From assembly GCA_013002925.1 (NCBI GenBank), contig JABDLQ010000274.1:1-42967 (forward strand): 42,967 nucleotides of DNA, in the 5' to 3' direction. Below, one piece after another: positions 1,519 through 39,446 of the stretch. Origin of the DNA: Gammaproteobacteria bacterium (lineage in GTDB: Bacteria > Pseudomonadota > Gammaproteobacteria > Steroidobacterales > SZUA-146). Made by a program: the position numbers and the translations under genes. Each line of letters starts with the position of its first letter. Within the stretch, counting starts at the first letter, position 1. The notes below the pieces were generated by a model. That model searched no databases. It was not told where the DNA came from and was given only the letters and a program-made list of their open reading frames with translations.

Positions 1519-1686
1519 ATAGTAGAGAGGCCATTTTAAGGCGTCCACAATTTGTTGTTACCCGCCGTTACATTCCAACCCCACCGTTAGGTTTTACAGA
1601 CAAGACGCTGAGACACTTTCGGCTGAGTTATTTTGATCAATTTACGCTGTGTTTATTTTTTTGAAAGATTTGAGATCAAATTACTT

Positions 1687-4600
1687 ATGAGTGTTTATCA
1701 TATTGCGCGAAAGATTCAGTGGGTGGTGTTACTCGTATTAAGCGGGGCTGTCGTTCACTCTACATTCGCGGATGCCATCGATGATCTATTACCCGGTCAA
1801 TGGTATGCTGCGCCTAACTCGAAAATGCAGAGCGTCAATCCTTGCCCGACAGGCGGTTGTGCGTATACCGGCCAGACTGGTTTTCGTTCAGTTCAGATTG
1901 CGTGGAGCGGTGCGGCCTTTGACACCAATAGTGACAGGCTTATTGTCTGGGGTGGGGGTCACGGCGATTACTGGGGCAATGAAGTCTATGTCTTTGACGT
2001 AAACTCTTCACAGTGGTCGCGCTTGACGGAACCCAGCACGCTGGGCCCGAATTCGCAGGAATGCACAGGTATCAATCCGGATGGTCGGCCACGTTCCAGG
2101 CACACCTACAACAATCTCGATTTTTCGCCTGAGCTGAATGCATTTATCAGTTTCGGCAATAGTGGCACGTCGCCTGCAAATATTTGCGCTGATCGTAAGA
2201 CCTGGATTTTGCCGCTTGACAGCGCCACACCGGAGTGGCAGCTGGGCACTGATAATACCCTGTCTGGTGCGACCGGTATGGGCGCGACCGCCTACGATCC
2301 GGTGCGCGGAACATTCTGGCATCAACGGTCCGATGTCGGTGGGTTTGGCATGTATGACCCTGCGACGCACACGTGGCAAAACTATGGTTCCCGGGCGTTG
2401 GCAATTTATGCAACCGGTGCCATCGATCCACTGCGAGATCAAATGCTGGTTATCGGTGGAACTGCCAGCCAGGCATTTGTCTGGGATCTGGCAAACCCGA
2501 ACAACCCACCGCTGAATCTTTTAAGCAACTCCACTTTCACGTCAACCGACACTGATGGTATAGCAGGTGGTCGTGGCGTTGGCCTTGCCTATGATCCTGT
2601 CGTTGACGCTTTTGTCGTGTGGGACGGTGGTACCACTGTTTATACCATTGACCCTGACACCTGGGCGGTCAGCCGGATCAATGCTGACGCCGGTAACACA
2701 GTGAATCCGGGCACAGCGATTACCGCTGGAACGTATGGGCGCTTTCGCTATGTGCCATCCCGCAATGTCTATATTCTTGCCAACGGGGTTGACAAGGATG
2801 TGTTTTTCTATCGGCTCTCAGATGGTGGCGGTAGCACTGCAGCACCGGTCATCGGTATGACGCTGACGAACAGCAATATATTGATTGGCGAAGATGCTGA
2901 TTTGAGCTGGTCCGTTGCCCATGCTGATTCCTGTGTTGCCAGCGGAGACTGGTCAGGTAGTAAGCCGGTAGCAGGCAGCACGACATTTCCCGCGCTGACA
3001 AGCGATCAAACCTTTACGCTTACTTGTAGCGGTGCGGGCGGGACCAGCAATAAATCGATTACCGTCACGGTGTCAGCGCCACCGCCACCACCAGCCGGGA
3101 CAGAAGACTGGGAGGCGCGTTCCACCGCACCGGGCGTATTGTCTGCCATTGGTTTTGATGTGGAAAGCGAAGTGACGAACTGGATACATCTTGATTCCAA
3201 GCAGGATCATGTGGTGTGGGAAACTGCAAACACGTCTTCCGGTGCGGGTGCATTACGCTTTAACATTTTAAAAACGGACGGAGCAAATTCAGGCAACTGG
3301 CGTCGATGGTTAGCCGATGACGAGCGCGAATTTGTTGAAGGCGATGAGTTCTATATTTCTTATCGTCAATATATTCCTGAATACTATGCCACTCATCAAT
3401 TCCTCGGCGGCGGTGGCTGGAAACAGATAATCGTAAGTCGTAACGCCGGCAATATGAATGGAGTGAACTATGTAGGTACACCAACCGGATCCAACCAGGT
3501 CAATGAAATTGTGATGAACAATTACCTTTATCGGAGTTTGCCACAAGGTTATCATCGCACCACGAATGGCTCCTATGTTGGTTTTTACACGGGTGCATCA
3601 ACCGCCTGTTCCCATACCGACTTCAGATTACAGAATGCTGTCGATCGCGGACCGCAATCGATTGGTACAGCGTGTGAAAATGACCGTGCACGCTATGGTG
3701 GGTTGTTTTCCTATGGCTCCCGTACCGGAGTACCGGATCCTCTCACCGGCGCATTTACTTTTACGCCCGATGAGTGGCATTCGTTTAAAATGTGGATCAA
3801 ATTGGGCAGCCAGGGTACCACTACCAGAAATACTCACGTCAAAATCTGGGCGGCGCATGACGGTGAAGATTGGGACCTCATCATAGATCGCGATGACGTC
3901 GATCTGGGTGGAGGTCCTGCGCACAATGCGTATTGGTTATTACCGTATGACACAGGCAAACAACCAGATCCTACCCGTGAGGATACGTATACGCTTTATG
4001 ACGAAGTAATCGTATCTCTGAATGACATTGCCGCGCCGGGAGCGACTGGCTCGGGTGCGACACTGCCCACGGTTGATTTGACGGCCAGCTCCGGATCTAT
4101 CCTGGACGGCGGTTCCGTGCAATTGAATTGGACTTCAACTGCTGCGGATACTTGTACGGCATCAGGGGGCTGGAGTGGTGCAAAAGCGACCAGCGGCACC
4201 GAAACTGTTGGTCCGCTGTCGGCGACAACAAGTTTTGTTCTGACGTGTACAAATGCAGACGGAAGCCGCTCAGACAGCTTGACGGTGACCGTCGAGGCAC
4301 CTATGCCTTACACGATATTACAGAGTAAAACAATTCACCATCAGGATACATTTGAACTTGACGGAGCCACTGTCTCGGATGGAATTTTTGCCTTTGTCTC
4401 GCCGGGTTCCGGGCTATCACAGGTGCAGTTTTTTCTCGATGATCCAACAGCCAGCGGTACACCTTACAGTGTCGAATTTGTTGAACCCTTTGACTTTGCC
4501 TATGATCCGGTTGGAGGGTTTGATACGACAACTATCGCCAATGGCAGCCATTCGTTAACCGCCAAATTATTTCTGGTTGGCGGAGAGGAGCAGATCATCT

Positions 4601-7600
4601 CGGTGTCTTTTACGGTTGCCAATGAGATCATTGTGCCGCCACCGACACTCAGTTTTTCCGCGAGTCCGGTCGCAGTTGATTTTGAGGGCTTTACTACGCT
4701 CACCTGGTCGACAACAAGTGCATCTTTATGCGTGGCGGGCGGAGACTGGACAGGAAGCCGCGCTGTCAGCGGCAGCGAGTCTGTTGGCCCGTTGACCAGC
4801 AATAAAACGTTTTTTTTGAGCTGCACCGGACCAGGTGGGAGCGTCAACCAGACCGCCACAGTACTTGTGGCGTCACCTGACGCCCCTGAGCTGACGATCA
4901 CAGCCACACCTTCTTCTGTTGATTACAACGGCGCTACAACAGTCTCCTGGACCACTACAGGCACAGAATCCTGCGTGGCCTCGGGCGGATGGGTGGGAGT
5001 CCGCCCGGTTTTTGGCTCGGAAACCGTCGGGACTCTGCAGGAAAACACTGATTTTACGCTGACATGCACAGGCCCTGGCGGATCTGTGACAGGTACGGCA
5101 GGCGTGACCGTCGCACCTGTGCCGGCGCCTACTGTGACTCTGGTTGCATCGCCTCCGGCGGTTGACTACAACGGTGCATCAACACTGAGTTGGAGCTCTA
5201 CCAATGCCGAATCGTGTGCGGCGTCGGGTGCCTGGAGCGGCGCACGTTCGTCCCTGGGCGTATTGACTGTCGGTCCGCTGGAAGAAACCGCGGAGTTTAC
5301 GCTGGTGTGTACGGGTGCAGGAGGCACGGGCAATGCCAGTGTCACCGTGACGGTGGCGGCGCCGGCGCCGCCCGAATTGAGCTTTACCGTTTCATCATCG
5401 TCAATCGCCTACGATGGCTCCATTTTGGCGTATTGGACAGCAACTAATGCCACCAGTTGTACCGCAAGCGGTGACTGGTCGGGCGTGCGGGGCCTCAACG
5501 GTGTTGAAGCGCTGGGTCCATTGCAGGAAGACGCCGTATACACATTAACCTGTAGTGGTCCCGGTGGATCGGTCAGCCACACCCAGACTATTTCAGTGGC
5601 CGCACCGCTGGCACCTGTCATCGGATTTACTACCGATGCAGCATCGGTAGATTACGGCAGCGGCGCCCAGTTAAGTTGGGATGTCAGTAATGCAACGAGT
5701 TGTATCGCAAGTGGTGCGTGGAGCGGCACACGGTCACTGACTGGCACCGAGGCCGTAGGTCCGCTGTTAAGCGACAGCACCTACACATTATCGTGCACAG
5801 GACTTGGCGGGACGGCGAGTCAGACGGTGACGGTGACGGTCAATCCGCCTGTACCCACGGTGTCCCTGACAGCGACACCGCTGTCCATTCCGTTTGAGGG
5901 CACAACGACGCTCTCGTGGACCAGCGAGCATGCTTCTGAATGTACAGCCAGCGGTGCATGGTCTGGTACTCTGGCAGGCAGTGGCACGCAAGTATCGGCG
6001 TCTTTATCCACTAACAGTACGTTCATGATTACGTGCACGGGCACTGGTGGGTCTGCTTCAGATTCACTGACGGTTAACGTAGCTGCACCCGGGGCTCCGT
6101 CCGTCGGTTTCTCTGCCAGTCCGGCAGCCGTGGCCAGTGGTGAGTCCACTACATTGACCTGGACATCAAGCAATACAACCGCTTGTAATGCGGCAGGTGA
6201 CTGGTCGGGTACCAAGGCGATCAATGGCAGTGAAAGCGTAGGCCCACTGACCGCCACCAGTACGTTTATACTGACGTGTTCTGGTGTAGGAGGCGACGTC
6301 ACACAGACCATTACAGTTCCGATATTGGTGCCTGAACCGGTTGTAACGTTAACCGCAGCGCCTGGGAGTGTGCCGCATAATGGCAGCACCACACTGACCT
6401 GGACCTCGACGAATGCGAACAGTTGTGAAGCGTTTGGCAGCTGGTCAGGGCTGCAGGCCCTGAACGGCAGCCTGACGGTTGATAATATCGATAGCGAACG
6501 CACGTATGCGTTGTACTGTGAAGGATCCGGTGGCACGGCCAGTGCACTGGTGACCATTGCGGTCGGCGCTCCACCTGTCCCTGAAATCAGTCTATCCACA
6601 GACGTTGTGACAGTCATGTATGGCGATACCGTGACCATCAACTGGGCAGCTACACAAGCCACAACATGTGAAGCCTACGGGGGTTGGTCAGGGATCAAGA
6701 CATTAATTGGCACAGAAGAGAGTTTGCCAATTACCAGTGACACTACGTATGTGCTGGTGTGCTCTGGCCCCGGTGGGCAGGTAGATGCCGCAACAGTCGT
6801 TACGGTTGCGGTTGAGCCCCCCAATGTAACGCTGGAGGCGTCGCCGCTGACGGTAGATTACGACGGTTCAACGACACTGACGTGGACTGCCACCGGAGCG
6901 GACTCATGCCAGGCTTTCGGCAGCTGGTCGGGTGTAAAGGTTACGTCAGGTACCGAGGTTATCGACAATCTTGCCAATACCGGAAATTTCGTATTGTTGT
7001 GTTCCGGCCCGGGAGGTGACGGGGACGCGAGTGTTTCGGTGTTGGTGAACCCGGCACCGCTACCGCTGGTCAGCCTGATCGCAGAGCCCGCAGAAGTCAG
7101 TTTTGGTGGTACAACAACCTTAAGCTGGTCAAGTCGCGATGCAGATACCTGTGAAGCATTTGGTGGCTGGTCCGGCGATCGTGATACTGAAGGGAGCTAT
7201 GTGGTCGAAGATTTACTGGCCACCACGAGTTTCACGCTTTTGTGTCAAGGTCCGGGTGGCAGTCGCGTGTTGATTGCCAATGTTGCGGTTGGAGCTCCGG
7301 AAGCGCCGATCATAGAGTTCTATGTCGAGCCCGATTTTATTGCTTACGGCGGCGCAGCTATTTTGAACTGGACAGTCAGTCAGGCTGATTCCTGTTTCGC
7401 AACCGGCGACTGGTCCGGCGACAAAGCCCTGACGGGTGTTGAAACAATCTCACCTTTGTACTCAACGGCAAATTTCGCATTGACATGTACCGGCGTGGGC
7501 GGCGGCTCGAGTGTGTCTGTCAGCGCAACCGTGGCGTCACTGGCTGACATGGCTTTACAGAATTTTGAAGACAATGAACTCAATACCGACCCGGAAGGTT

Positions 7601-10116
7601 GGATCGACACGGGTCCGGATTTTGTCACGACCCAGTTGTCATCCGCATTCAAGGTGCGTGATATTGCCGGTAGCCGTGCTCTGGCAATCACCCGTACGAC
7701 TGGGCTGGATATGCATTCACACTATGTGCTTGACGATTCGGGTAGCTGGCAGGACTATCGATATAGCGGACGGATTCGAATTCAGAACACCGAGGATAAG
7801 GCGGGAGTGACAATTCTGTCGGCGATGCCGGAGTTAGCTGCTTATTACCGTTTAGGTGTGGCAAGTACTGGTGAAAACTTTGTGTTGAGTAATGTTGGCA
7901 CGGGTGTGAACTGTGCAGGTGATCTGGACACTGGCGTACTTGCGAGTGCTGGCAACTGGTATCGTTTCGCCATCGAAGCGCAGACCAGCGAGACTCAAAC
8001 TGATGTACGTGCGCGTGTCTGGATCGATGGTGAAGCCGAGCCAGCAGAATGGCAGGCACAATGCACGGATACGGGCCCGGGTAGACGATTCCATGGGCGC
8101 GTAGGTGTCTGGGTCAGTCTGCAGTCGCCGCTCGCTGGTGGCGCCTGGGATGAATTGCTGGTCACGCCTTTGAGTGGAGCACCGGTATTACCACCACTTC
8201 TGACGTTTTACGCAAACCCGGTGACCGTAAGCAGCCTGGACTTCTCGACACTGACCTGGGAGGCTACTAATGCAGATAGCTGCGTCGCAAGCGGTGCCTG
8301 GGAAGGGGCGCGCAGCGTAAGTGGTAACGAACAAACAGCACCGCTGACGGAAAACAGCACTTTTACTATGCAGTGTAATGGCCCGGGAGGCAGTGCCACG
8401 AGTTCTGTTGTTGTAGCGGTTGGTGATGCGGTACCACCTGAACTTAGTTTTGCTGTAACGCCGGACAGCGTGTTTTCCGGGGACGATGTCACACTAACCT
8501 GGTCGTCGACTTCGACAGCGATATGTACCGCTTCCGGCGACTGGAGTGGCGCACGAAGCACCAGTGGTTCAGAGTCAATTTCCAATGTGATGGACGATAT
8601 GACATTCACCCTGGATTGTGTCGGCGCGGGAGGTAGCGTTTCACAGACAGTCAATCTTCTGCTGGCCGACATCATCCGCGACCCGCAACTTGCGTTCTCA
8701 GTTGACCCGCTGAGACTAGGTGTCGACGGCACCGTGATTCTCAACTGGAGCTCAGAAAACACCACCACATGTGAAGCCAATGGCAGCTGGAGCGGGTCTC
8801 GCCCGGTCAGCGGAGGTGAAGTAGTCGGCCCGATAAGCGCATCGGAGTCTTATGTCCTGATTTGTAGTGGTCGCGGTGGCACGGTCGCAGATGCTATTGC
8901 GGTTTCCTATGTCGATTCGGATAGTGATGCCATGCCAGATATTTGGGAGACTGCCGTTTTTGGAAGTTTGTCCAACAATGGACTGGGCGACACGGATGGT
9001 GATGGACTGCTTGATCAGGAGGAGTATCTGAGCGGCACTGATCCGCGCGATACAGATTCCGATGATGATGGACAGAACGATTTCGATGAACTTCAGTTTG
9101 GCAGTGATCCGCTGGATCCAGGCGATAATTTCGGTGATTCGTCGCCGGCGCAGCCGATTGTCGCTGACTCGGACAACGCCAGTCTCGCGTTACTGGAGAT
9201 TGACGTAATGAACGGATATAGCGACCCGGATGGAAATCCATTGCAATTTTCACACTGGCAGATCAGCTTGAGTGAGAGTTTTGATAGCATGGTGTTCGAC
9301 CGGGAAGTGTCGGGCTCAACGGCGTTGATGATACCGAGTGGGGTGTTGGACCCTGGGGTCACCTATTACATCAGAACGCGTCACGTGGATTCTTCCGATA
9401 CGCCATCCCCGTGGTCGGACGTTGCGACAATGGTTGCTGATACGGCGTACCCAAATGATCTTGATGGCAATGGCATCGATGACGAATTCCAGGTGCCTGG
9501 AAACCCGGACACCAACGGCAATGGAACGCCTGATCAGAGTGAGGGCATCTGCAATCTGTATGATGCGATGGGTGGCAATATCATTGGTATTACCAGCAAC
9601 GTCGGCGTGACTCGTTGCTATACCTCGGTATCAAATGATGTCGTAAGCGGCATTAGTTTACCGGATGGAATGGAATTGCCATTGGGGATGTTCAGTTTCC
9701 GCATCGAAGGTCTGTTTGTCGATGAAGCTTCGCCTGCACAGGTTTTTGTGAGCGTGTGGCTGCCCACGACTTATGATCCTGCCAGTGGTTGGTACAAGTG
9801 GGACGAAACAAGCGGCGAGTTAACCGACTATTCAGACTATGTCACCTACAATGACAATCGTGTGACAATCAGCCTGACCGATGGCGGCCCCGGAGATCAG
9901 GATGGGGTGGTTAACGGTATCATTGTTGATCCTAGTGGCCCTGCGATAGCCGCGGCGCCGCCGCCACCGCCGCCGCCGCCCGCACCGCCGACTACCCCGT
10001 CTGATCCGGATCCGTCGACACCTGTGGCGAGTGACAGTGGGGGAGGCGGCGCTCTGCACTGGGTGACGTTGCTGCTGCTGTATACGCTCGCATTGCGCAG
10101 ACGCCGGCCGCAGTAA
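1687..10116 (+). CDS. Giant secreted multidomain adhesin-like protein with 17 Ig-like repeats and GlyGly-CTERM
   Basis: I chose the ATG at 1687 (2809 residues) over the TTG at 1633 because it starts directly at a signal peptide ('WVVLLVLSGAVVHSTFADA'). The approximate order of modules is as follows. A kelch/galactose-oxidase-like beta-propeller spans 30-380, followed by Ig-like repeat 1 at about 386-465. A lectin- or polysaccharide-lyase-like beta-sandwich lies at 472-785, then repeat 2 and an extra beta domain to about 980. Repeats 3-14 run from 984 to 1950, a second jelly-roll-like domain covers 1954-2165, and repeats 15-17 reach 2408. After these come thrombospondin-type-3-like Asp-rich calcium motifs (2409-2480), a fibronectin-like stretch and a choice-of-anchor-U-like module ending 'GDQDGVVNGIIVDPSGPA'. 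The C terminus is a Pro-rich linker and a GlyGly-CTERM tail (GGGG, hydrophobic helix, RRRR). Such tails are cut by rhombosortase after type II secretion in known systems. A glycan-binding surface or matrix role is likely but inferred. The gene stands alone behind a c-di-GMP riboswitch. Confidence 0.85.
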   Translation: MSVYHIARKIQWVVLLVLSGAVVHSTFADAIDDLLPGQWYAAPNSKMQSVNPCPTGGCAYTGQTGFRSVQIAWSGAAFDTNSDRLIVWGGGHGDYWGNEVYVFDVNSSQWSRLTEPSTLGPNSQECTGINPDGRPRSRHTYNNLDFSPELNAFISFGNSGTSPANICADRKTWILPLDSATPEWQLGTDNTLSGATGMGATAYDPVRGTFWHQRSDVGGFGMYDPATHTWQNYGSRALAIYATGAIDPLRDQMLVIGGTASQAFVWDLANPNNPPLNLLSNSTFTSTDTDGIAGGRGVGLAYDPVVDAFVVWDGGTTVYTIDPDTWAVSRINADAGNTVNPGTAITAGTYGRFRYVPSRNVYILANGVDKDVFFYRLSDGGGSTAAPVIGMTLTNSNILIGEDADLSWSVAHADSCVASGDWSGSKPVAGSTTFPALTSDQTFTLTCSGAGGTSNKSITVTVSAPPPPPAGTEDWEARSTAPGVLSAIGFDVESEVTNWIHLDSKQDHVVWETANTSSGAGALRFNILKTDGANSGNWRRWLADDEREFVEGDEFYISYRQYIPEYYATHQFLGGGGWKQIIVSRNAGNMNGVNYVGTPTGSNQVNEIVMNNYLYRSLPQGYHRTTNGSYVGFYTGASTACSHTDFRLQNAVDRGPQSIGTACENDRARYGGLFSYGSRTGVPDPLTGAFTFTPDEWHSFKMWIKLGSQGTTTRNTHVKIWAAHDGEDWDLIIDRDDVDLGGGPAHNAYWLLPYDTGKQPDPTREDTYTLYDEVIVSLNDIAAPGATGSGATLPTVDLTASSGSILDGGSVQLNWTSTAADTCTASGGWSGAKATSGTETVGPLSATTSFVLTCTNADGSRSDSLTVTVEAPMPYTILQSKTIHHQDTFELDGATVSDGIFAFVSPGSGLSQVQFFLDDPTASGTPYSVEFVEPFDFAYDPVGGFDTTTIANGSHSLTAKLFLVGGEEQIISVSFTVANEIIVPPPTLSFSASPVAVDFEGFTTLTWSTTSASLCVAGGDWTGSRAVSGSESVGPLTSNKTFFLSCTGPGGSVNQTATVLVASPDAPELTITATPSSVDYNGATTVSWTTTGTESCVASGGWVGVRPVFGSETVGTLQENTDFTLTCTGPGGSVTGTAGVTVAPVPAPTVTLVASPPAVDYNGASTLSWSSTNAESCAASGAWSGARSSLGVLTVGPLEETAEFTLVCTGAGGTGNASVTVTVAAPAPPELSFTVSSSSIAYDGSILAYWTATNATSCTASGDWSGVRGLNGVEALGPLQEDAVYTLTCSGPGGSVSHTQTISVAAPLAPVIGFTTDAASVDYGSGAQLSWDVSNATSCIASGAWSGTRSLTGTEAVGPLLSDSTYTLSCTGLGGTASQTVTVTVNPPVPTVSLTATPLSIPFEGTTTLSWTSEHASECTASGAWSGTLAGSGTQVSASLSTNSTFMITCTGTGGSASDSLTVNVAAPGAPSVGFSASPAAVASGESTTLTWTSSNTTACNAAGDWSGTKAINGSESVGPLTATSTFILTCSGVGGDVTQTITVPILVPEPVVTLTAAPGSVPHNGSTTLTWTSTNANSCEAFGSWSGLQALNGSLTVDNIDSERTYALYCEGSGGTASALVTIAVGAPPVPEISLSTDVVTVMYGDTVTINWAATQATTCEAYGGWSGIKTLIGTEESLPITSDTTYVLVCSGPGGQVDAATVVTVAVEPPNVTLEASPLTVDYDGSTTLTWTATGADSCQAFGSWSGVKVTSGTEVIDNLANTGNFVLLCSGPGGDGDASVSVLVNPAPLPLVSLIAEPAEVSFGGTTTLSWSSRDADTCEAFGGWSGDRDTEGSYVVEDLLATTSFTLLCQGPGGSRVLIANVAVGAPEAPIIEFYVEPDFIAYGGAAILNWTVSQADSCFATGDWSGDKALTGVETISPLYSTANFALTCTGVGGGSSVSVSATVASLADMALQNFEDNELNTDPEGWIDTGPDFVTTQLSSAFKVRDIAGSRALAITRTTGLDMHSHYVLDDSGSWQDYRYSGRIRIQNTEDKAGVTILSAMPELAAYYRLGVASTGENFVLSNVGTGVNCAGDLDTGVLASAGNWYRFAIEAQTSETQTDVRARVWIDGEAEPAEWQAQCTDTGPGRRFHGRVGVWVSLQSPLAGGAWDELLVTPLSGAPVLPPLLTFYANPVTVSSLDFSTLTWEATNADSCVASGAWEGARSVSGNEQTAPLTENSTFTMQCNGPGGSATSSVVVAVGDAVPPELSFAVTPDSVFSGDDVTLTWSSTSTAICTASGDWSGARSTSGSESISNVMDDMTFTLDCVGAGGSVSQTVNLLLADIIRDPQLAFSVDPLRLGVDGTVILNWSSENTTTCEANGSWSGSRPVSGGEVVGPISASESYVLICSGRGGTVADAIAVSYVDSDSDAMPDIWETAVFGSLSNNGLGDTDGDGLLDQEEYLSGTDPRDTDSDDDGQNDFDELQFGSDPLDPGDNFGDSSPAQPIVADSDNASLALLEIDVMNGYSDPDGNPLQFSHWQISLSESFDSMVFDREVSGSTALMIPSGVLDPGVTYYIRTRHVDSSDTPSPWSDVATMVADTAYPNDLDGNGIDDEFQVPGNPDTNGNGTPDQSEGICNLYDAMGGNIIGITSNVGVTRCYTSVSNDVVSGISLPDGMELPLGMFSFRIEGLFVDEASPAQVFVSVWLPTTYDPASGWYKWDETSGELTDYSDYVTYNDNRVTISLTDGGPGDQDGVVNGIIVDPSGPAIAAAPPPPPPPPAPPTTPSDPDPSTPVASDSGGGGALHWVTLLLLYTLALRRRRPQ
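2842..8908 (+). repeat. 17 degenerate Ig-like repeats (about 80 aa each) within the giant gene
   Basis: Each unit follows the pattern of a start like 'P.V.L.A.P..V', then 'TTLTW.S.NA.SC.ASG.WSG', 'G...VGPL....TFTLTC.GPGG', and a closing 'VTVTV'. By eye I count one unit near 2842, one near 4060, twelve in tandem from about 4636 to 7545, and three from about 8188 to 8908. Each unit has two near-invariant Cys, which could form an intradomain disulfide outside the cell. The DNA copies are diverged rather than identical, so this is an old expansion of protein domains, not a recent satellite. Confidence 0.85.
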
Positions 10117-32179: not shown

Positions 32180-33166
32180 ATGATTGACGACCGGCGCATC
32201 AGCGTTGCGCCCATGATGAACTGGACCGATCGCCATTGCCGATATTTTCATCGCCTGCTGCACCCGCAGGCATGTTTATTTACGGAAATGATCCACGCGA
32301 ATGCCGTGATCAATGGTGATCGTGATTATCTGCTGGGTTTCAATGATGCTGAACATCCGGTGGTTGTCCAGCTCGGCGGTAATCATCCGGCAACGCTTGC
32401 GCGTGCCGCGGTCATTTGTGCTGAACATGGCTACGACGAGATCAATCTCAATATCGGTTGTCCCAGCGAGCGCGTGCAAATCGGTGACTTTGGCGCATGT
32501 CTGATGGCGCAACCGCAATTGGTTGGTGAGTGCATCGCCGCAATGAAAGCTGCTGTAAACGTGCCGGTGTCGGTGAAAACACGTATCGGCATTGACGCGC
32601 ATGATTCTTATGATTTCTTGCATACTTTTATTGCGGAGGTAGTTGCAGCGGGTGCAGATGTAATCGTAGTGCATGCGCGGATTGCTATCCTGTCCGGGCT
32701 TAGCCCGAAACAAAACCGCGAAGTGCCGCCTCTGAACTATTCAAGGGTGGCCCGGATTGTCGCTGAGTTTCCCGATGTTCCGGTGATTCTGAATGGCGGT
32801 ATATGCGGTCTGGGTCAGATCAAAGAGGCGCTGGAGACTTATGTGGGCGTAATGCTCGGACGTGCTGCGTACCACAACCCCTGGTTGCTGGCCCAAATTG
32901 CCGCGCAGTGGCAGATTCAGAAGACACCACCAGATCGGGAGACTGCGGTCAGGCAGTTTATTCCCTATATGAGGCAACAGTGTGAAGCAGGAGTGCCGTT
33001 ACACAAAATGACTCGCCATATACTTGGCTTGTATCAGGGGCAGCGCGGGGCCCGCGCCTGGCGACGCCACCTGAGCGAAAACAGCCATCGCTCAAAGGCT
33101 GATGTCAGTGTGGTGGAAGCTGCCATGTCGCTAGTGGACCACGGTTCTGTAATCACGTATAAGTAG
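32180..33166 (+). CDS. dusA: tRNA-dihydrouridine(20/20a) synthase DusA
   Basis: This 328-residue FMN enzyme has the DusA pattern: 'ISVAPMMNWTDRHCRYFHR', 'EMIHANAVINGD', 'VVQLGGNHP', and 'NLNIGCPSERVQIGDFGACLM' with the catalytic Cys in 'FGACLM'. 'VSVKTRIGID', 'VHARIAILSGLSPKQNREVPPLNY' and 'LNGGI' follow. It reduces uridine at positions 20 and 20a of the tRNA D-loop with NADPH. The C-terminal helical tRNA-binding domain ('HILGLYQGQRGARAWRRHLSE') is present. Length is normal. Confidence 0.95.
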   Translation: MIDDRRISVAPMMNWTDRHCRYFHRLLHPQACLFTEMIHANAVINGDRDYLLGFNDAEHPVVVQLGGNHPATLARAAVICAEHGYDEINLNIGCPSERVQIGDFGACLMAQPQLVGECIAAMKAAVNVPVSVKTRIGIDAHDSYDFLHTFIAEVVAAGADVIVVHARIAILSGLSPKQNREVPPLNYSRVARIVAEFPDVPVILNGGICGLGQIKEALETYVGVMLGRAAYHNPWLLAQIAAQWQIQKTPPDRETAVRQFIPYMRQQCEAGVPLHKMTRHILGLYQGQRGARAWRRHLSENSHRSKADVSVVEAAMSLVDHGSVITYK

Positions 33167-33201: not shown

Positions 33202-34044
33202 ATGTCAAAACCTGAAAAAGCACAAAAACAACGCAAACGGAAGGGTCTGCCACCCATGGCAGATGTTGCGGATCGACATCAGCTTTATGAAATGTCCGTG
33301 CAGAGTGTTGAGACTGAAGTAGAGTTTCTGGGCGATACCTACCGGTCCGTGCGTGGCCGTCCGGCAATCTCGTTGCGTGAAGATTTTTGTGGAACGGCTG
33401 CAGCAGCTTGCGAATGGATCAAAGTCAATCCGGAGCATACAGCGATCGGGATTGACATTGATGGTGAGGTGCTTGAATGGGGACTGAATCATCATATTGC
33501 AAAGCTTGACGACGCAGGGCGCGCGCGCTTGCGCATCGTCGAGGACGATGTTCTGCATGCAGAGGTCGAGCCGGTTGATATTTTAACGGCGTTTAATTTC
33601 AGTTACTGGATTTTTAAAACCCGCGATTCACTGCGTAACTACTTTGCTATCGCACGCGATGGGCTGAAAGATGATGGTCTGTTTTTTATCGACGCATTTG
33701 GTGGTTCCGAAGCACATGATGTAATGGAAGAAGAAACCGAACATGACGGTTTCACTTACATCTGGCAACAGGGAAGTTTTGATCCGATAACACACGATCT
33801 GAGTTGTTATATTCATTTTGAGTTTCCTGACGGTTCGCGTCTCAAACGCGCCTTTAGCTATCACTGGCGCCTATGGATGCTGCCCGAACTTCAGGAGTTG
33901 CTAACGGAGGCCGGGTTCTCCAACGTCACTGTATACTGGCAACAGGAAGATGACGATGATGATGAGGAAGAAGGCGATTTTGAACCCGCGACCCGCGGGG
34001 AGCCGGACCCGGCCTGGATAGCGTATATTGTCGCGGAAAAATAG
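33202..34044 (+). CDS. Class I SAM-dependent methyltransferase
   Basis: This 280-residue protein has a Rossmann-type methyltransferase core. It contains 'SLREDFCGTAAAACEWI' (motif I variant), 'AIGIDIDGEVLEWGL' (acidic end of strand 2), 'VEDDVLHAEVEPVDILTAFNFSYWIF' and 'GLKDDGLFFIDAFGG'. Near the C terminus there is a striking acidic run 'EDDDDDEEEGDFE' before the final strand. Target unknown. AAGGA precedes the ATG. It lies 35 bases after dusA. A similar protein is common in proteobacteria, but I cannot name a function. Confidence 0.8.
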   Translation: MSKPEKAQKQRKRKGLPPMADVADRHQLYEMSVQSVETEVEFLGDTYRSVRGRPAISLREDFCGTAAAACEWIKVNPEHTAIGIDIDGEVLEWGLNHHIAKLDDAGRARLRIVEDDVLHAEVEPVDILTAFNFSYWIFKTRDSLRNYFAIARDGLKDDGLFFIDAFGGSEAHDVMEEETEHDGFTYIWQQGSFDPITHDLSCYIHFEFPDGSRLKRAFSYHWRLWMLPELQELLTEAGFSNVTVYWQQEDDDDDEEEGDFEPATRGEPDPAWIAYIVAEK

Positions 34045-34173: not shown

Positions 34174-35070
34174 ATGGTAAACCACGCAGAACTTGCAATA
34201 TTGTTTGCTGATGTTGTTGGCAGCACCAAGCTCTACGAGCTAATGGGTGACGCCAAGGCACGCGTCACTGTGCAAAACTGTATAGACCTGATGACTCGTG
34301 CAACAGAGGAAAACTCGGGTAACGTCATCAAGACCATGGGTGACGAAGTTATGTGCACATTTCCAACGGTCGACAACGCGGTCGAGGCGGCCGCTCAGAT
34401 GCAGCAAATGATCAGTGAAGATCTCAGTGTCGACGATGTACCGGTTGCGATTCGTGTAGGGTTTCATTTTGGCCCGGTGATGCTCGAGGATGACGATGTG
34501 TTTGGCGGGGCTGTGCATACCGCTAATCGAATGACCAGTCAGGCAAAAGCCGCGCAAATTATCACGACTGCAATTGCCGTCGGAAAAATGTCTTCTGACT
34601 GGCAGTCCTGGACACGGCAAATTGATCTGGCGACCGTAAAAGGTGTCAAGGATGAAATTGCGTTGTTTGAGGTGTTGTGGCAGCGGGAAGACAACACCCG
34701 CATGTTGCCAACCATAAACTGGAGTCAGGCAACTGATGTGCGTAATCAGCGGCTGCGCCTGACCTATCGGGGCCAGGAAGTAGTGGTTGACAATGTTCGT
34801 CCCTACGTCAGTATTGGCCGAGCGGAAGACAGCGATATCGTTGTCAAAGATACGTTAATTTCGCGATTGCATGCACGTATCGAATTTGTACGGGGAAAAT
34901 TTGTCCTGTATGACGAAAGCACGAATGGAACGTGCGTAAAACAAGACTCCGGCGAAGAGCAATTTGTGCGGCGTGACAGCTTGCAAATCACGGGTGCTGG
35001 CTCTATCGGCCTGGGGCGTGTGCCACAGCCTAATTCACCGCAGGCAATACAATTCAATTATGAAGAATAG
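34174..35070 (+). CDS. Class III nucleotide-cyclase-like domain fused to an FHA domain
   Basis: The protein has 298 residues. Residues 5-170 are a class III adenylate/guanylate cyclase homology domain with both metal Asp positions ('ILFADVVGSTKLYELMG' and 'VIKTMGDEVMCTFP'). The segment that normally reads G-D-x-V-N-x-A-x-R is 'GGAVHTANRM', so the base-selecting Asp is Gly and the transition-state Asn is His. The Arg is kept. Residues 195-295 are an FHA domain that binds phosphothreonine ('VSIGRAEDSDIVVKDTLISRLHARIEF' and 'YDESTNGTCVK'). There is no membrane segment. It could be a cyclase with altered specificity, or a degenerate domain used for binding and signalling through phosphorylated partners. 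Confidence 0.85.
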   Translation: MVNHAELAILFADVVGSTKLYELMGDAKARVTVQNCIDLMTRATEENSGNVIKTMGDEVMCTFPTVDNAVEAAAQMQQMISEDLSVDDVPVAIRVGFHFGPVMLEDDDVFGGAVHTANRMTSQAKAAQIITTAIAVGKMSSDWQSWTRQIDLATVKGVKDEIALFEVLWQREDNTRMLPTINWSQATDVRNQRLRLTYRGQEVVVDNVRPYVSIGRAEDSDIVVKDTLISRLHARIEFVRGKFVLYDESTNGTCVKQDSGEEQFVRRDSLQITGAGSIGLGRVPQPNSPQAIQFNYEE

Positions 35071-35589: not shown

Positions 35590-36183
35590 CTAGGCGACTT
35601 TTCGGGTTCGCTTTTTGGCGGTTTTACGTACAGTCTTGCCCGCTTTAGTTGCCTTCTTTTTGGCGGTTTTTTTGGATCTTGAGACTTTTTTACCTGGCTG
35701 ACGAGCCAGCTTGGTCGCTGTTTTGCGGGTGCGCTTGACAGCTTTTTCACTCTCTTTGCCAAATTCACCGGCAATGTCCACAACCCAGTCCCGCAGTTCA
35801 GCACCAGTGTCCGTGAACACCGCAATGACGTTGCGGGTATCGCGTGTTAAGCGCTCACGGGTTTTTGGCATCAGATCGACCTGATCGCTCCAGAGCATCT
35901 GAAAGCTGTCGGCATTTGCAGCTACGTCGAGGCGTTTCGCCACGCCGCGCAAACTGCCTTGTACCAGGCGGCTTTGCTCATTGAGCAAACGTGCCAGCAT
36001 GTCGTGAGAAATTTTGTTTAATTTCAGACCTTTATTTGAAGCCTTAGCAACATCCTTCGTGCTTTTGGCAACCCAGTCTGAACTGGTTTCAGCCAGCTTG
36101 CGGCTGCGCTTTACGCTGGCAGTTGCCAGATTTACAGAACCGTCTACAACGGGTTGAACAATCTTTTCGATGACCGGATTCAT
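35590..36183 (-). CDS. Phasin family protein with histone H1-like basic tail (PhaF-like)
   Basis: I choose the ATG at 36183 because AGGAGG lies just upstream; the track start at 36207 is a poorer choice. About 197 residues. Residues 1-125 are helical, with the look of a phasin ('SDWVAKSTKDVAKASNKGL', 'LVQGSLRGVAKRLDVAANAD', 'LWSDQVDLMPKTRERLTRDTRN'). The last 55 residues are a Lys/Arg/Ala/Thr-rich tail ('KKTAKKKATKAGKTVRKTAKKRTRK') like histone H1 or Pseudomonas PhaF. Such proteins coat polyhydroxyalkanoate granules and, through the tail, bind DNA and help share granules between daughter cells. No PHA synthase is in the window. A monocistronic gene with its own terminator. Confidence 0.75.
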   Translation of the reverse strand: MNPVIEKIVQPVVDGSVNLATASVKRSRKLAETSSDWVAKSTKDVAKASNKGLKLNKISHDMLARLLNEQSRLVQGSLRGVAKRLDVAANADSFQMLWSDQVDLMPKTRERLTRDTRNVIAVFTDTGAELRDWVVDIAGEFGKESEKAVKRTRKTATKLARQPGKKVSRSKKTAKKKATKAGKTVRKTAKKRTRKVA

Positions 36184-36394
36184 GATGGCCTCCTGTGTGG
36201 TTAACAAAACACTAAATGTTGCATTGCACTATACGAGTTTTGTTGCACTGTGTCAATTATTTTAAGCCCGCAATTTAACGGGTGTGAAAACCTGTTTTTG
36301 AGATAAGCAAAATCCTTAGATACAACGATCAAATAGTCAGGGTTCACCGGATAATTGCTTCTGCCAAAACGTGCAAATCACCGAACTCTTGAAG

Positions 36395-36621: not shown

Positions 36622-37626
36622 ATGACAGATTTCCGTCAACAGCGAGTATGGTGGCAGCTGCTTTGCGCAGCCGGAATCCTGTGGAGTCGTGCTGACGCAT
36701 TTGCTGAGGGCACAATCGCCGGTACCGACATCGCTAATACTGCCCGGATCGAGTACAGCGTCGGTGTCAATTCTGTCACCACGTCCTCAAACACCGCCGT
36801 AGTGACGGTTGCAGAGATTATCGACGTCGATGTCGTGTTACAAAGCGGCCAGGTACCCGTAGGCCCCGGTGAGACAAACCAGGGCCTCGTGTTCACGATT
36901 ACCAATACCGGTAATGGTACTGAAACGTTTACGCTGATTGCGGACAGCACGCTGCCAGGTGATGATTTTGATCCGGTGTTGTCGTCACCGAACCCGATAT
37001 TTTTTGACACCGATGGCAGCGGTGATTTCTCGGCTGCAGACGTCGCCTATCTTCCGGGAACGAATGATCCAGAATTGAGTCCGGACGAGCATATCACTGT
37101 AGTGGTCCTGAACGACATACCAGCCAGCGGTTTGGTTGACACCCAGACTGGCAGCACGCGCCTGCACGTTGAAGCACGCACAGGGGTGGGTGTGGCCGGC
37201 ACAATTTTTGTCGGTGCCGGTGATGGGGGTGTGGATGCGATGGCGGGAGCCACGGAAGGCGATGGCGAAGACACCGGCGAGTACATGATCAAGACCATCG
37301 ACCTGAATGTTTCAAAATCGGCCGGCATTAGCGATCCCTTTGGCAACGCTCTACCTGTGCCAGGTGCCGAAATTACCTATCGCATCGAAGTTTCGGTAAC
37401 CGGTACCGGGGTGGCATCCGGTGTTGTGATGACAGATGTTATTCCTGCGCACACCACGTATGTGCCCGGGACTATCGAGCTTAATGGTACGCAGCTCACT
37501 GACGCACCTGATGCCGATGTCGGTGAGTTTAACGCCGGCACTGATCCAGCCGTTGCGGTGCAAATAGGCGATATTTCTGAAGCCGGCGGCCCACAGGTTG
37601 TCGAATTTAAAGTTGTAATCAATTGA
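36622..37626 (+). CDS. Secreted DUF11-type protein (paralogue 1)
   Basis: This 334-residue protein has a signal peptide ending near 'ADAFAEG'. Its mature part starts with 'GTIAGTDIANTARIEYSVG'. A beta-domain 'GLVFTITNTGNGTETFTLIA' and a region 'FFDTDGSGDFSAADVAYLPG' that could bind calcium follow. The C-terminal DUF11 domain reads 'LNVSKSAGISDPFGNALPVPGAEITYRIEVSVTG' and 'VVMTDVIPAHTTYVPGTI'. DUF11 domains are Ig-like and occur in surface and matrix proteins. The third gene of the cluster is a diverged paralogue with the same order of blocks. No sorting tail is present, so the product is probably periplasmic or surface-assembled. Function unknown. Confidence 0.8.
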   Translation: MTDFRQQRVWWQLLCAAGILWSRADAFAEGTIAGTDIANTARIEYSVGVNSVTTSSNTAVVTVAEIIDVDVVLQSGQVPVGPGETNQGLVFTITNTGNGTETFTLIADSTLPGDDFDPVLSSPNPIFFDTDGSGDFSAADVAYLPGTNDPELSPDEHITVVVLNDIPASGLVDTQTGSTRLHVEARTGVGVAGTIFVGAGDGGVDAMAGATEGDGEDTGEYMIKTIDLNVSKSAGISDPFGNALPVPGAEITYRIEVSVTGTGVASGVVMTDVIPAHTTYVPGTIELNGTQLTDAPDADVGEFNAGTDPAVAVQIGDISEAGGPQVVEFKVVIN

Positions 37627-37643
37627 CCCGCAAGGGGGAGCAC

Positions 37644-38132
37644 ATGATGAAATCTATCCGCATGTTCATAACCGTCTCTGTAGCCATTGCAAGTGTCGCG
37701 GTTGGCGCCCAGCAAGCACCGGTTTCAATGACGACAGTTGCAGAGAAAGAGGAAGCCTATACCGACGGGCAGGGTATTGAACGCACCCGCCTGGTACCCG
37801 TGGCAACCGTTATTCCCGGTGATCGCATCGTCTACACGATTACTTTTGCAAACAAGGGAGAGGAAGTCGCAGATAACATCAATGTCGTCGATCCGATTCC
37901 TGAACAGATGCGCTTTATTGCGGGCTCGGCGTTTGGGCCGGGCACCAAAATCACTTTTTCCGCTGATGGCGGAAAGACGTTTGGACTGCCTGGTGACATT
38001 ACGGTAGTTGATGACACAGGGCGCGTGCGATCTGCATCACCAGCGGATTACACCCATATCAGATGGAAATTTCTGAGCCCGCTGAAACCTGGAACACAAG
38101 CGTATGCGCAGTTTAAGGCAGAGCTGAAATAA
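37644..38132 (+). CDS. Small exported single-DUF11-domain protein
   Basis: The start is the ATG-ATG pair at 37644/37647 behind GGGGGAG; the track start at 37623 is an upstream TTG. About 162 residues. A signal peptide ends at 'ASVAVGAQQ'. The mature protein is one DUF11-like domain: 'TRLVPVATVIPGDRIVYTITFANKGEEVADNINVVDPIPEQMRFIAGSA', then 'DDTGRVRSASPADYTHIRWKFLSPLKPGTQAYAQFKAELK'. It sits between the two larger paralogues, 17 bases after the first stop. This suggests a structural subunit or adaptor made in step with them. Function unknown. Confidence 0.8.
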   Translation: MMKSIRMFITVSVAIASVAVGAQQAPVSMTTVAEKEEAYTDGQGIERTRLVPVATVIPGDRIVYTITFANKGEEVADNINVVDPIPEQMRFIAGSAFGPGTKITFSADGGKTFGLPGDITVVDDTGRVRSASPADYTHIRWKFLSPLKPGTQAYAQFKAELK

Positions 38133-38186
38133 GTTATCCCGGGCCTGCTGATGGCAGGTCTGGCTGTTTTTATTGAGGAGTGTATT

Positions 38187-39446
38187 GTGAAATTTTCACG
38201 CAAAAACCTGTACCCGCTGTTGCAGCTGCTGATTCCCGCGTTAGCATTGATTTATACGCAAGCCGGGCTGGCTGCCGGAACTGATCCGGGAGGTACAGCA
38301 GCGGGTACCAGCGTAGCCAACCAGGCGACACTGGACTATGAAATTGGTGGTATCCCACAAACCCAGGTGTTGAGTGACAATGACGGTAATCCCGCCAACG
38401 GCTCCAATGCAACGACCTTTGTCGTTGATCGCAAACTGGACGCACTGGTCAGCGAAAATGGCGCCACCTACAACAGTTCCACCACTGCCACAGTGGTACC
38501 CGGACTTTCCCAGGGAGGTGGCAGTACCGGGGCCGTGTTGTCATTTACGGTAACCAACGAGGGCAATGAGGTTCAGGACTTTAGCCTGTCGGCAGCGCCC
38601 ACGGTGTTTGATCCTTTCAGCGGTACGGATAATTTTGATGCCACAAACGTCAATATTTTTGTTGATGGCAATGGTAATGGTACCTATGAACCGGCGATTG
38701 ACACCGCAACTTACATTGACGAACTGGACTACTTTGGGAACGGCGCAGGTAATCCGAGCTCCACTGTAGTTTTTGTGGTCGCCGATATTCCGGCGGTACA
38801 GGTCAACGGTGACATTGCGGCCTATGTGCTGAATGCGCAGGTAGCTGAAGGCGGCACCGCTGCCACACAAGGCGCAGATATCACGACTGATGATTCCGCA
38901 GTGGCCGATGATCCTGCAGTTGTACAGGATGTGTTTGCAGATAGTGAAAACACCAACAATGCCGGAGATGGAATCAGCGATGGAATCGCTTCTATTGAAG
39001 ATGCATACCTGATATCGTCGCCTACACTGACGATTGCGAAAAGTTCAGCGGTGATTAGTGATCCGTTTACATGCCCGGTTTTGCCATGTGCACCGGGTAC
39101 GGATCCGAAGGCGATACCGGGAGCGGTCATTGAGTATACGATCGCCATTGTTAACGCTACAGGAGCAGCTGCCGCGACCAATGTCAGCGTGTCAGATGAT
39201 CTGTCATCTGAAATCGTTGGTGGTGGGGGCACCGAAAGTATCGACTTTTTGCTGGGTCAATATGGTGGCGCTGGCGCCGACATAGAGTTGACTGTGAACA
39301 GTGGAGGAACCGTGGTAACCAATCTCGGTGCATCAGCGTTTGACGGTGACGCGGGTCAGTTTGTTGCCAACGTTGTGACAGTGACAGTCGCTAACCTGGC
39401 GGGTGGGGAGTCTGCAGAAGTCAGGTTCCGCGTGGAAATTCAGTAA
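38187..39446 (+). CDS. Secreted DUF11-type protein (paralogue 2)
   Basis: The start is GTG at 38187, six bases after GAGGAG; the upstream ATG at 38151 lacks support. About 419 residues. It has a signal peptide ending at 'QAGLAAG', then 'GTAAGTSVANQATLDYEIGG', 'VLSFTVTNEGNEVQDFSLSA', 'IFVDGNGNGTYEPAIDTATYID' and 'VFVVADIPAVQ'. A C-terminal DUF11 domain follows ('LTIAKSSAVISDPFTCPVL', 'IPGAVIEYTIAIVNATGAAAATNVSVSDDL'). The block order matches the first gene of the cluster, so the two are paralogues. Possible disulfide Cys pair in 'CPVLPC'. Likely surface or matrix protein of unknown function. Confidence 0.8.
   Translation: MKFSRKNLYPLLQLLIPALALIYTQAGLAAGTDPGGTAAGTSVANQATLDYEIGGIPQTQVLSDNDGNPANGSNATTFVVDRKLDALVSENGATYNSSTTATVVPGLSQGGGSTGAVLSFTVTNEGNEVQDFSLSAAPTVFDPFSGTDNFDATNVNIFVDGNGNGTYEPAIDTATYIDELDYFGNGAGNPSSTVVFVVADIPAVQVNGDIAAYVLNAQVAEGGTAATQGADITTDDSAVADDPAVVQDVFADSENTNNAGDGISDGIASIEDAYLISSPTLTIAKSSAVISDPFTCPVLPCAPGTDPKAIPGAVIEYTIAIVNATGAAAATNVSVSDDLSSEIVGGGGTESIDFLLGQYGGAGADIELTVNSGGTVVTNLGASAFDGDAGQFVANVVTVTVANLAGGESAEVRFRVEIQ

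Follow-up and report, generated by a model that had tools for sequence, protein, structure and literature searches.

A class III cyclase joined to an FHA domain in a gammaproteobacterium: a probable adenylyl cyclase with a candidate phosphothreonine switch in its linker

The window, by which we mean the whole stretch of DNA that was analysed, comprises 42,967 nucleotides from the genome of a gammaproteobacterium. It contains a gene whose product of 298 aa combines an N-terminal class III nucleotidyl cyclase domain with a C-terminal FHA domain, referred to here as cyclase-FHA. The gene, the parts of its product and the two genes upstream of it are as follows.

34174-35070, + strand: cyclase-FHA gene, 298 aa; an open reading frame with orthologues in 67 of 97 genomes of the window's order
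34183-34659, + strand: class III nucleotidyl cyclase domain, residues 4-162; PF00211, E 4.2e-16; the AlphaFold model matches the Ma1120 catalytic domain
34210-34212, + strand: metal-binding Asp, D13; D in 139 of 140 homologues
34330-34344, + strand: ATP-specifying K53 to metal-binding D57 (KTMGD); K53 in 137 of 140, D57 in 140 of 140
34495-34497, + strand: base-selecting Asp, D108, intact; seven residues before the Asn position, as D157 is before A164 in Ma1120; D in 139 of 140
34516-34518, + strand: H115, where a transition-state Asn is expected; among 140 homologues, 79 have N, 59 have H, one has A and one has S
34528-34530, + strand: transition-state Arg, R119, intact; R in 137 of 140
34690-34740, + strand: disordered linker, residues 173-189; AlphaFold pLDDT below 50
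34696-34698, + strand: linker Thr, T175, candidate phosphosite and putative ligand of the FHA domain; Thr in 112 of 113, in the context [ED][ED]xTx[hydrophobic]
34750-35064, + strand: FHA domain, fold residues 193-297, Pfam core 212-257; PF00498, E 3e-12
32180-33166, + strand: tRNA dihydrouridine synthase, upstream neighbour; PF01207, E 2.8e-83; synteny conserved in the order
33202-34044, + strand: methyltransferase-like gene immediately upstream; weak Methyltransf_12 match, below the cut-off; adjoins the cyclase gene in most genomes of the order

The Pfam matches of the cyclase and the FHA domain both exceed the curated cut-offs. An AlphaFold model of the protein, built on 48 homologues and with a mean pLDDT of 89, consists of two folded domains plus the linker; since its pTM is low at 0.58, the relative placement of the two domains is not predicted by the model. 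The catalytic domains of Ma1120 from Mycobacterium avium were the best Foldseek matches to this model (E 4e-14, TM-score by target 0.88-0.89), and Ma1120 is likewise the closest solved structure by sequence. Because the gene is full-length in 67 of the 97 genomes of the order and because close homologues show a dN of about 0.08 with dS saturated, it is judged to be under purifying selection and not noise. Two in-frame stops interrupt one of the order's copies (G084), and tandem cyclase-FHA pairs occur at G705:C1:8854-10675 and G431:C104:6505-8366.

Other features of the window were recorded as well. Downstream of the cyclase, at 35590-36207 on the minus strand, is a gene for a lysine-rich phasin-like protein (PF09361) that is also present in several relatives. 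Positions 36622-39446 hold a run of three genes whose products are secreted and resemble one another in their DUF11-like sequence (the naming is putative), and the first of these is seen again downstream of the cyclase gene in L031 and L082, two relatives. A 2827-aa open reading frame of many similar repeats (WSS..SC.ASG.WSG...) at 1633-10116 probably encodes a large surface or secreted protein.

The interesting part of the protein is its FHA fusion, as this marks an old family whose linker contains a candidate phosphosite under strong conservation. FHA domains bind phosphothreonine (pThr) through GR, SxxH and NG motifs (PMC1262709). The corresponding residues, G215, R216, S230, R231, H233, N251 and G252, are invariant in 113 of 113 homologues, in agreement with the preliminary description of this DNA, which had noted a cyclase domain joined to an intact FHA domain. 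The same description called the fusion uncommon. This is true only in a relative sense: the fusion forms one old family that is present in at least two classes of the phylum.

The linker between the two domains is predicted to be disordered, also around T175, and apart from this residue it is variable in sequence. In an alignment of 113 sequences on which no motif was forced, this position is Thr in 112, the −2 position is D or E in 104, the +1 position is Ser in 56 and the +2 position is hydrophobic in 111. In the extended set, 138 of 140 homologues have, beyond the last cyclase strand, a Thr with a hydrophobic residue at +2 and mostly acidic residues at −3 and −2, the hydrophobic +2 having been imposed by this search. 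All 20 related cyclase domains that have no FHA domain are without the Thr motif; the nearest of them (L252) reads PEDMVSS, with no Thr. The peptides with which DgcB, GarA and OdhI engage their own FHA domains have Glu at −2, Ser at +1 and hydrophobic residues at −3, +2 and +3 (PMC6733907). The cyclase-FHA linker agrees with this pattern at −2 and +2, is mostly hydrophobic at +3 and has Ser at +1 in about half of the sequences. Its −3 residue is acidic and differs from the hydrophobic one in DgcB and GarA, which counts against an analogous role for T175. The conservation of this Thr could also have a structural or some other cause.

In most genomes of the window's order, cyclase-FHA follows the dihydrouridine synthase and methyltransferase-like pair, and queries for kinases, phosphatases and cyclic nucleotide monophosphate (cNMP)-binding proteins found nothing beside it within that order. 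That neither a kinase nor a phosphatase gene adjoins it there counts against regulation by phosphorylation. At 40 loci from other orders of the class, a PP2C homologue is found within about 5 kb in 14, a Ser/Thr kinase homologue in 21 and at least one of the two in 25; these neighbours were assigned by homology, with one pair verified by Pfam. A typical gene order at these loci is cyclase-FHA, PP2C, large kinase (L134, L141, L132, L133, L136 and L144). Among 27 homologues from outside the class, 26 have a PP2C homologue as the immediate upstream neighbour on the same strand. In one homologue (L149), a CRP-type regulator with cNMP-binding and HTH domains comes next. It is chiefly this association with PP2C and kinase genes that supports the phosphorylation link, and it probably represents the older arrangement. 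In four relatives (L112, L121, L124 and L146), the genes upstream of cyclase-FHA include two for PilT/PilU-type ATPases and one that is kinase-like (phmmer homology, the naming being our own), which suggests a link to twitching motility in their lineages.

We propose that cyclase-FHA is an adenylyl cyclase under the control of Ser/Thr phosphorylation, in which the phosphorylated linker Thr would dock into the protein's own FHA domain, with H115 as a matter of tuning, and we regard this reading as a whole as reasonably probable. From what is established for class III cyclases in general, together with the residues conserved in this one, cAMP synthesis by a dimer is the default, and the protein probably works as a cAMP-making enzyme that would convert ATP to cAMP as a homodimer. 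T175, which lies in the flexible linker, would be phosphorylated by a Ser/Thr kinase, and pT175 would become a ligand for an FHA domain, either that of its own subunit or that of the partner. This docking, which is probably the switch, would bring the cyclase domains into their active arrangement or take them out of it, in the manner of DgcB, and a PP2C phosphatase would reset it. The preliminary description had considered a phosphopeptide-linked sensor as one of three options, and this is the option that gains from the intact FHA domain, the PP2C and Ser/Thr kinase neighbours in relatives and the conserved linker Thr.

The known systems resemble this scheme in part. In DgcB of Bdellovibrio bacteriovorus, the FHA domain binds the protein's own phosphorylated tail, which is activating, and a mutant locked in the tail-bound form is constitutively active (PMC6733907). 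DgcB is, like the protein studied here, a second-messenger cyclase with an FHA domain and has a similar motif around its Thr (PMC6733907); unlike it, DgcB makes c-di-GMP with an unrelated GGDEF catalytic domain, and its FHA domain is N-terminal and preceded by the tail. In GarA and OdhI, the FHA domain is bound by the pThr of a flexible segment of the same protein (PMC5448819, PMC6733907). They share with cyclase-FHA this self-bound FHA arrangement, as proposed here, and a weak sequence match between the FHA domains, whereas they have no enzyme domain, carry the phosphosite N-terminally and inhibit metabolic enzymes. The threonine phosphorylation pathway PpkA-PppA-Fha of type VI secretion is encoded by genes for a kinase, a PP2C phosphatase and an FHA protein that lie together (PMC3953482), a grouping of kinase, PP2C and FHA genes like that in relatives of cyclase-FHA but without a cyclase.

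The FHA domain may instead act on a different ligand. Here the enzyme would again be an active adenylyl cyclase, and its FHA domain would bind the pThr of another protein, for example in the activation loop of a kinase, and so place or activate the cyclase, T175 not being the ligand. FHA domains usually bind their partners in trans, and the PP2C and kinase neighbours fit such an arrangement equally well. However, it leaves unexplained why a near-invariant Thr with a motif like those of self-binding FHA proteins is found in a variable, disordered linker and why this Thr is absent from the relatives without FHA domain. We consider a partner in trans possible but rather unlikely.

Self-docking as proposed above and binding in trans both involve a functional cyclase domain, for which the catalytic residues were compared with those of Ma1120. 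Ma1120 is the best match by both sequence and fold, although its solved chains have no FHA domain. Its residues K101, D157, A164 (the Asn position) and R168 (PMC4215837) place the base-selecting Asp seven residues before and the Arg four residues after the Asn position. The spacing in the window's protein is identical (D108-V-F-G-G-A-V-H115-T-A-N-R119), and D108 aligns D-to-D with Ma1120 'DDLFGRNVAMAAR'. The preliminary description had recognised both metal-binding Asp, D13 and D57, and the replacement of the transition-state Asn, residue 115 being His. It had also held that the base-selecting Asp was replaced, and in this it was mistaken: G112, three residues before the Asn position, had been taken for that Asp. 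Loss of the base-selecting Asp is ruled out by the alignment together with the published Ma1120 numbering, and the standard Asp at a shifted position, which the preliminary description had named as a result that would refute its reading, is D108. Position 112 varies freely among homologues (D, A, S, G, T, V, Q or E). Across 140 homologues, conservation is 139 for D13, 137 for K53, 140 for D57, 139 for D108 and 137 for R119. The sole real change among these residues is that of the transition-state Asn to His at position 115.

This position varies in the family in a lineage-dependent manner. Among the 140 homologues, His is confined to the window's order, and homologues from other orders and from outside the class carry Asn. 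In a tree of 113 sequences, calculated with columns 115, 116 and 118 left out, six state changes suffice to account for position 115, and the clade of the order (66 rows) has 59 H, 5 N, 1 S and 1 A. The His codons CAC and CAT are one base from the Asn codons AAC and AAT. The motif is readable in 30 of 31 other class III cyclases of the window's class and contains Asn in 30 of 30. Ma1120, which also lacks the transition-state Asn and has Ala where the window's protein has His, is active with Ala at this position and forfeits most of its activity on mutation to Asn (A164N; PMC4215837). Inactivity hence does not follow from H115, and, as the position varies in working enzymes, one change there is poor evidence for either a new product or a dead enzyme. 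We suggest that H115 would be an order-specific tuning of the active site and not a loss of function. We found no tested precedent for His at the Asn position.

Two further observations concern the same motif. Four of the 20 relatives, the class III cyclases L243, L244, L246 and L248 of the phylum, which have no FHA domain, have Gln at the Asn position (VQLAAR). N118, which adjoins R119, was considered as a compensating Asn and rejected, as H115 occurs together with Ala or Ser at 118 (L065, L066, L002 and L003) and N115 together with N118 (L027 and L035).

The same data bear on the suggestion of the preliminary description that the protein may be inactive. If His had ended catalysis, the protein would merely sense a nucleotide or a phosphopeptide. 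Most class III cyclases, including the 30 with a readable motif mentioned above, have kept the Asn, which is called essential in mammalian enzymes in the title of a work cited by PMC4215837. On the other hand, the remaining catalytic residues are nearly invariant in the His clade and the gene is under purifying selection, whereas a dead enzyme should lose more; N, A and S also occur at position 115 inside the order, and Ma1120 is active with Ala there (PMC4215837). These considerations weaken the case for inactivity and make it quite improbable. A product other than cAMP (cGMP, cCMP or cUMP), the remaining suggestion, is very improbable: residue 115 does face the active site and the substrate choice of class III cyclases is not fully predictable from sequence, but the main support for altered base selection is gone with the ATP-specifying pair K53/D108 intact, and guanylyl cyclases differ at both positions, where they carry Glu for the Lys and a different residue for the Asp (PMC4215837).

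The adenylyl cyclase that we favour, switched by its own linker pThr, would act in a genome with several candidate partners. The window's genome encodes two further class III cyclases, one of which is a second cyclase-FHA protein with Asn at the catalytic position, at least five kinase-domain proteins, three PP2C matches and 13 cNMP-binding matches. A class I adenylate cyclase gave no match in this genome, which is about 84% complete, so that a missing match is no proof of absence. Among the kinases is a 433-aa Ser/Thr kinase with a C-terminal cNMP-binding domain (G000:C451:13764-15062, L222), possibly a cAMP-controlled bacterial kinase, which is conserved in 70 of the 97 genomes of the order. 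Both this gene and cyclase-FHA are present in 67 of these genomes and neither in 27; the kinase alone occurs in three and the cyclase alone in none. The corresponding Fisher p of about 5e-21 is overstated, because the genomes are related and many of the absences fall within few families, which leaves far fewer independent events. In a class-wide sample the link is looser, with both genes in 34, only the cyclase in 42, only the kinase in 23 and neither in 224 genomes. As a control, a second class III cyclase of the window's genome (C338) was traced through the same 97 genomes and found in just 22, which shows that a cyclase need not track the kinase; this control is rarer than the kinase, and general co-loss in reduced genomes is compatible with the pattern. 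Physical linkage of the kinase and cyclase genes was considered and rejected, as their coordinates show no adjacency.

The co-occurrence of the two genes across the order hints at a possible feedback loop. In its closed form, cAMP made by the cyclase would act on the kinase with the cNMP-binding domain, which would phosphorylate T175, to be read by the FHA domain of the cyclase. We consider this full circuit unlikely.

Our literature search found no study of a class III cyclase fused to an FHA domain, subscription journals being thinly covered by it. The adenylyl cyclase CyaD of Anabaena may carry an FHA domain, for which the search gave no confirmation. The closest precedent that we found for a second-messenger enzyme gated by phosphothreonine is DgcB, which makes c-di-GMP. 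The natural series of N, H, A and S at position 115 within one gene family offers a route to asking what role the 'essential' transition-state Asn has in class III cyclases. Defined targets for testing the proposed switch are T175, the FHA domain, and a kinase and phosphatase that are either encoded nearby or inherited along with the cyclase. If the proposal is true, an old and widespread family of Pseudomonadota would tie cAMP synthesis directly to Ser/Thr phosphorylation.
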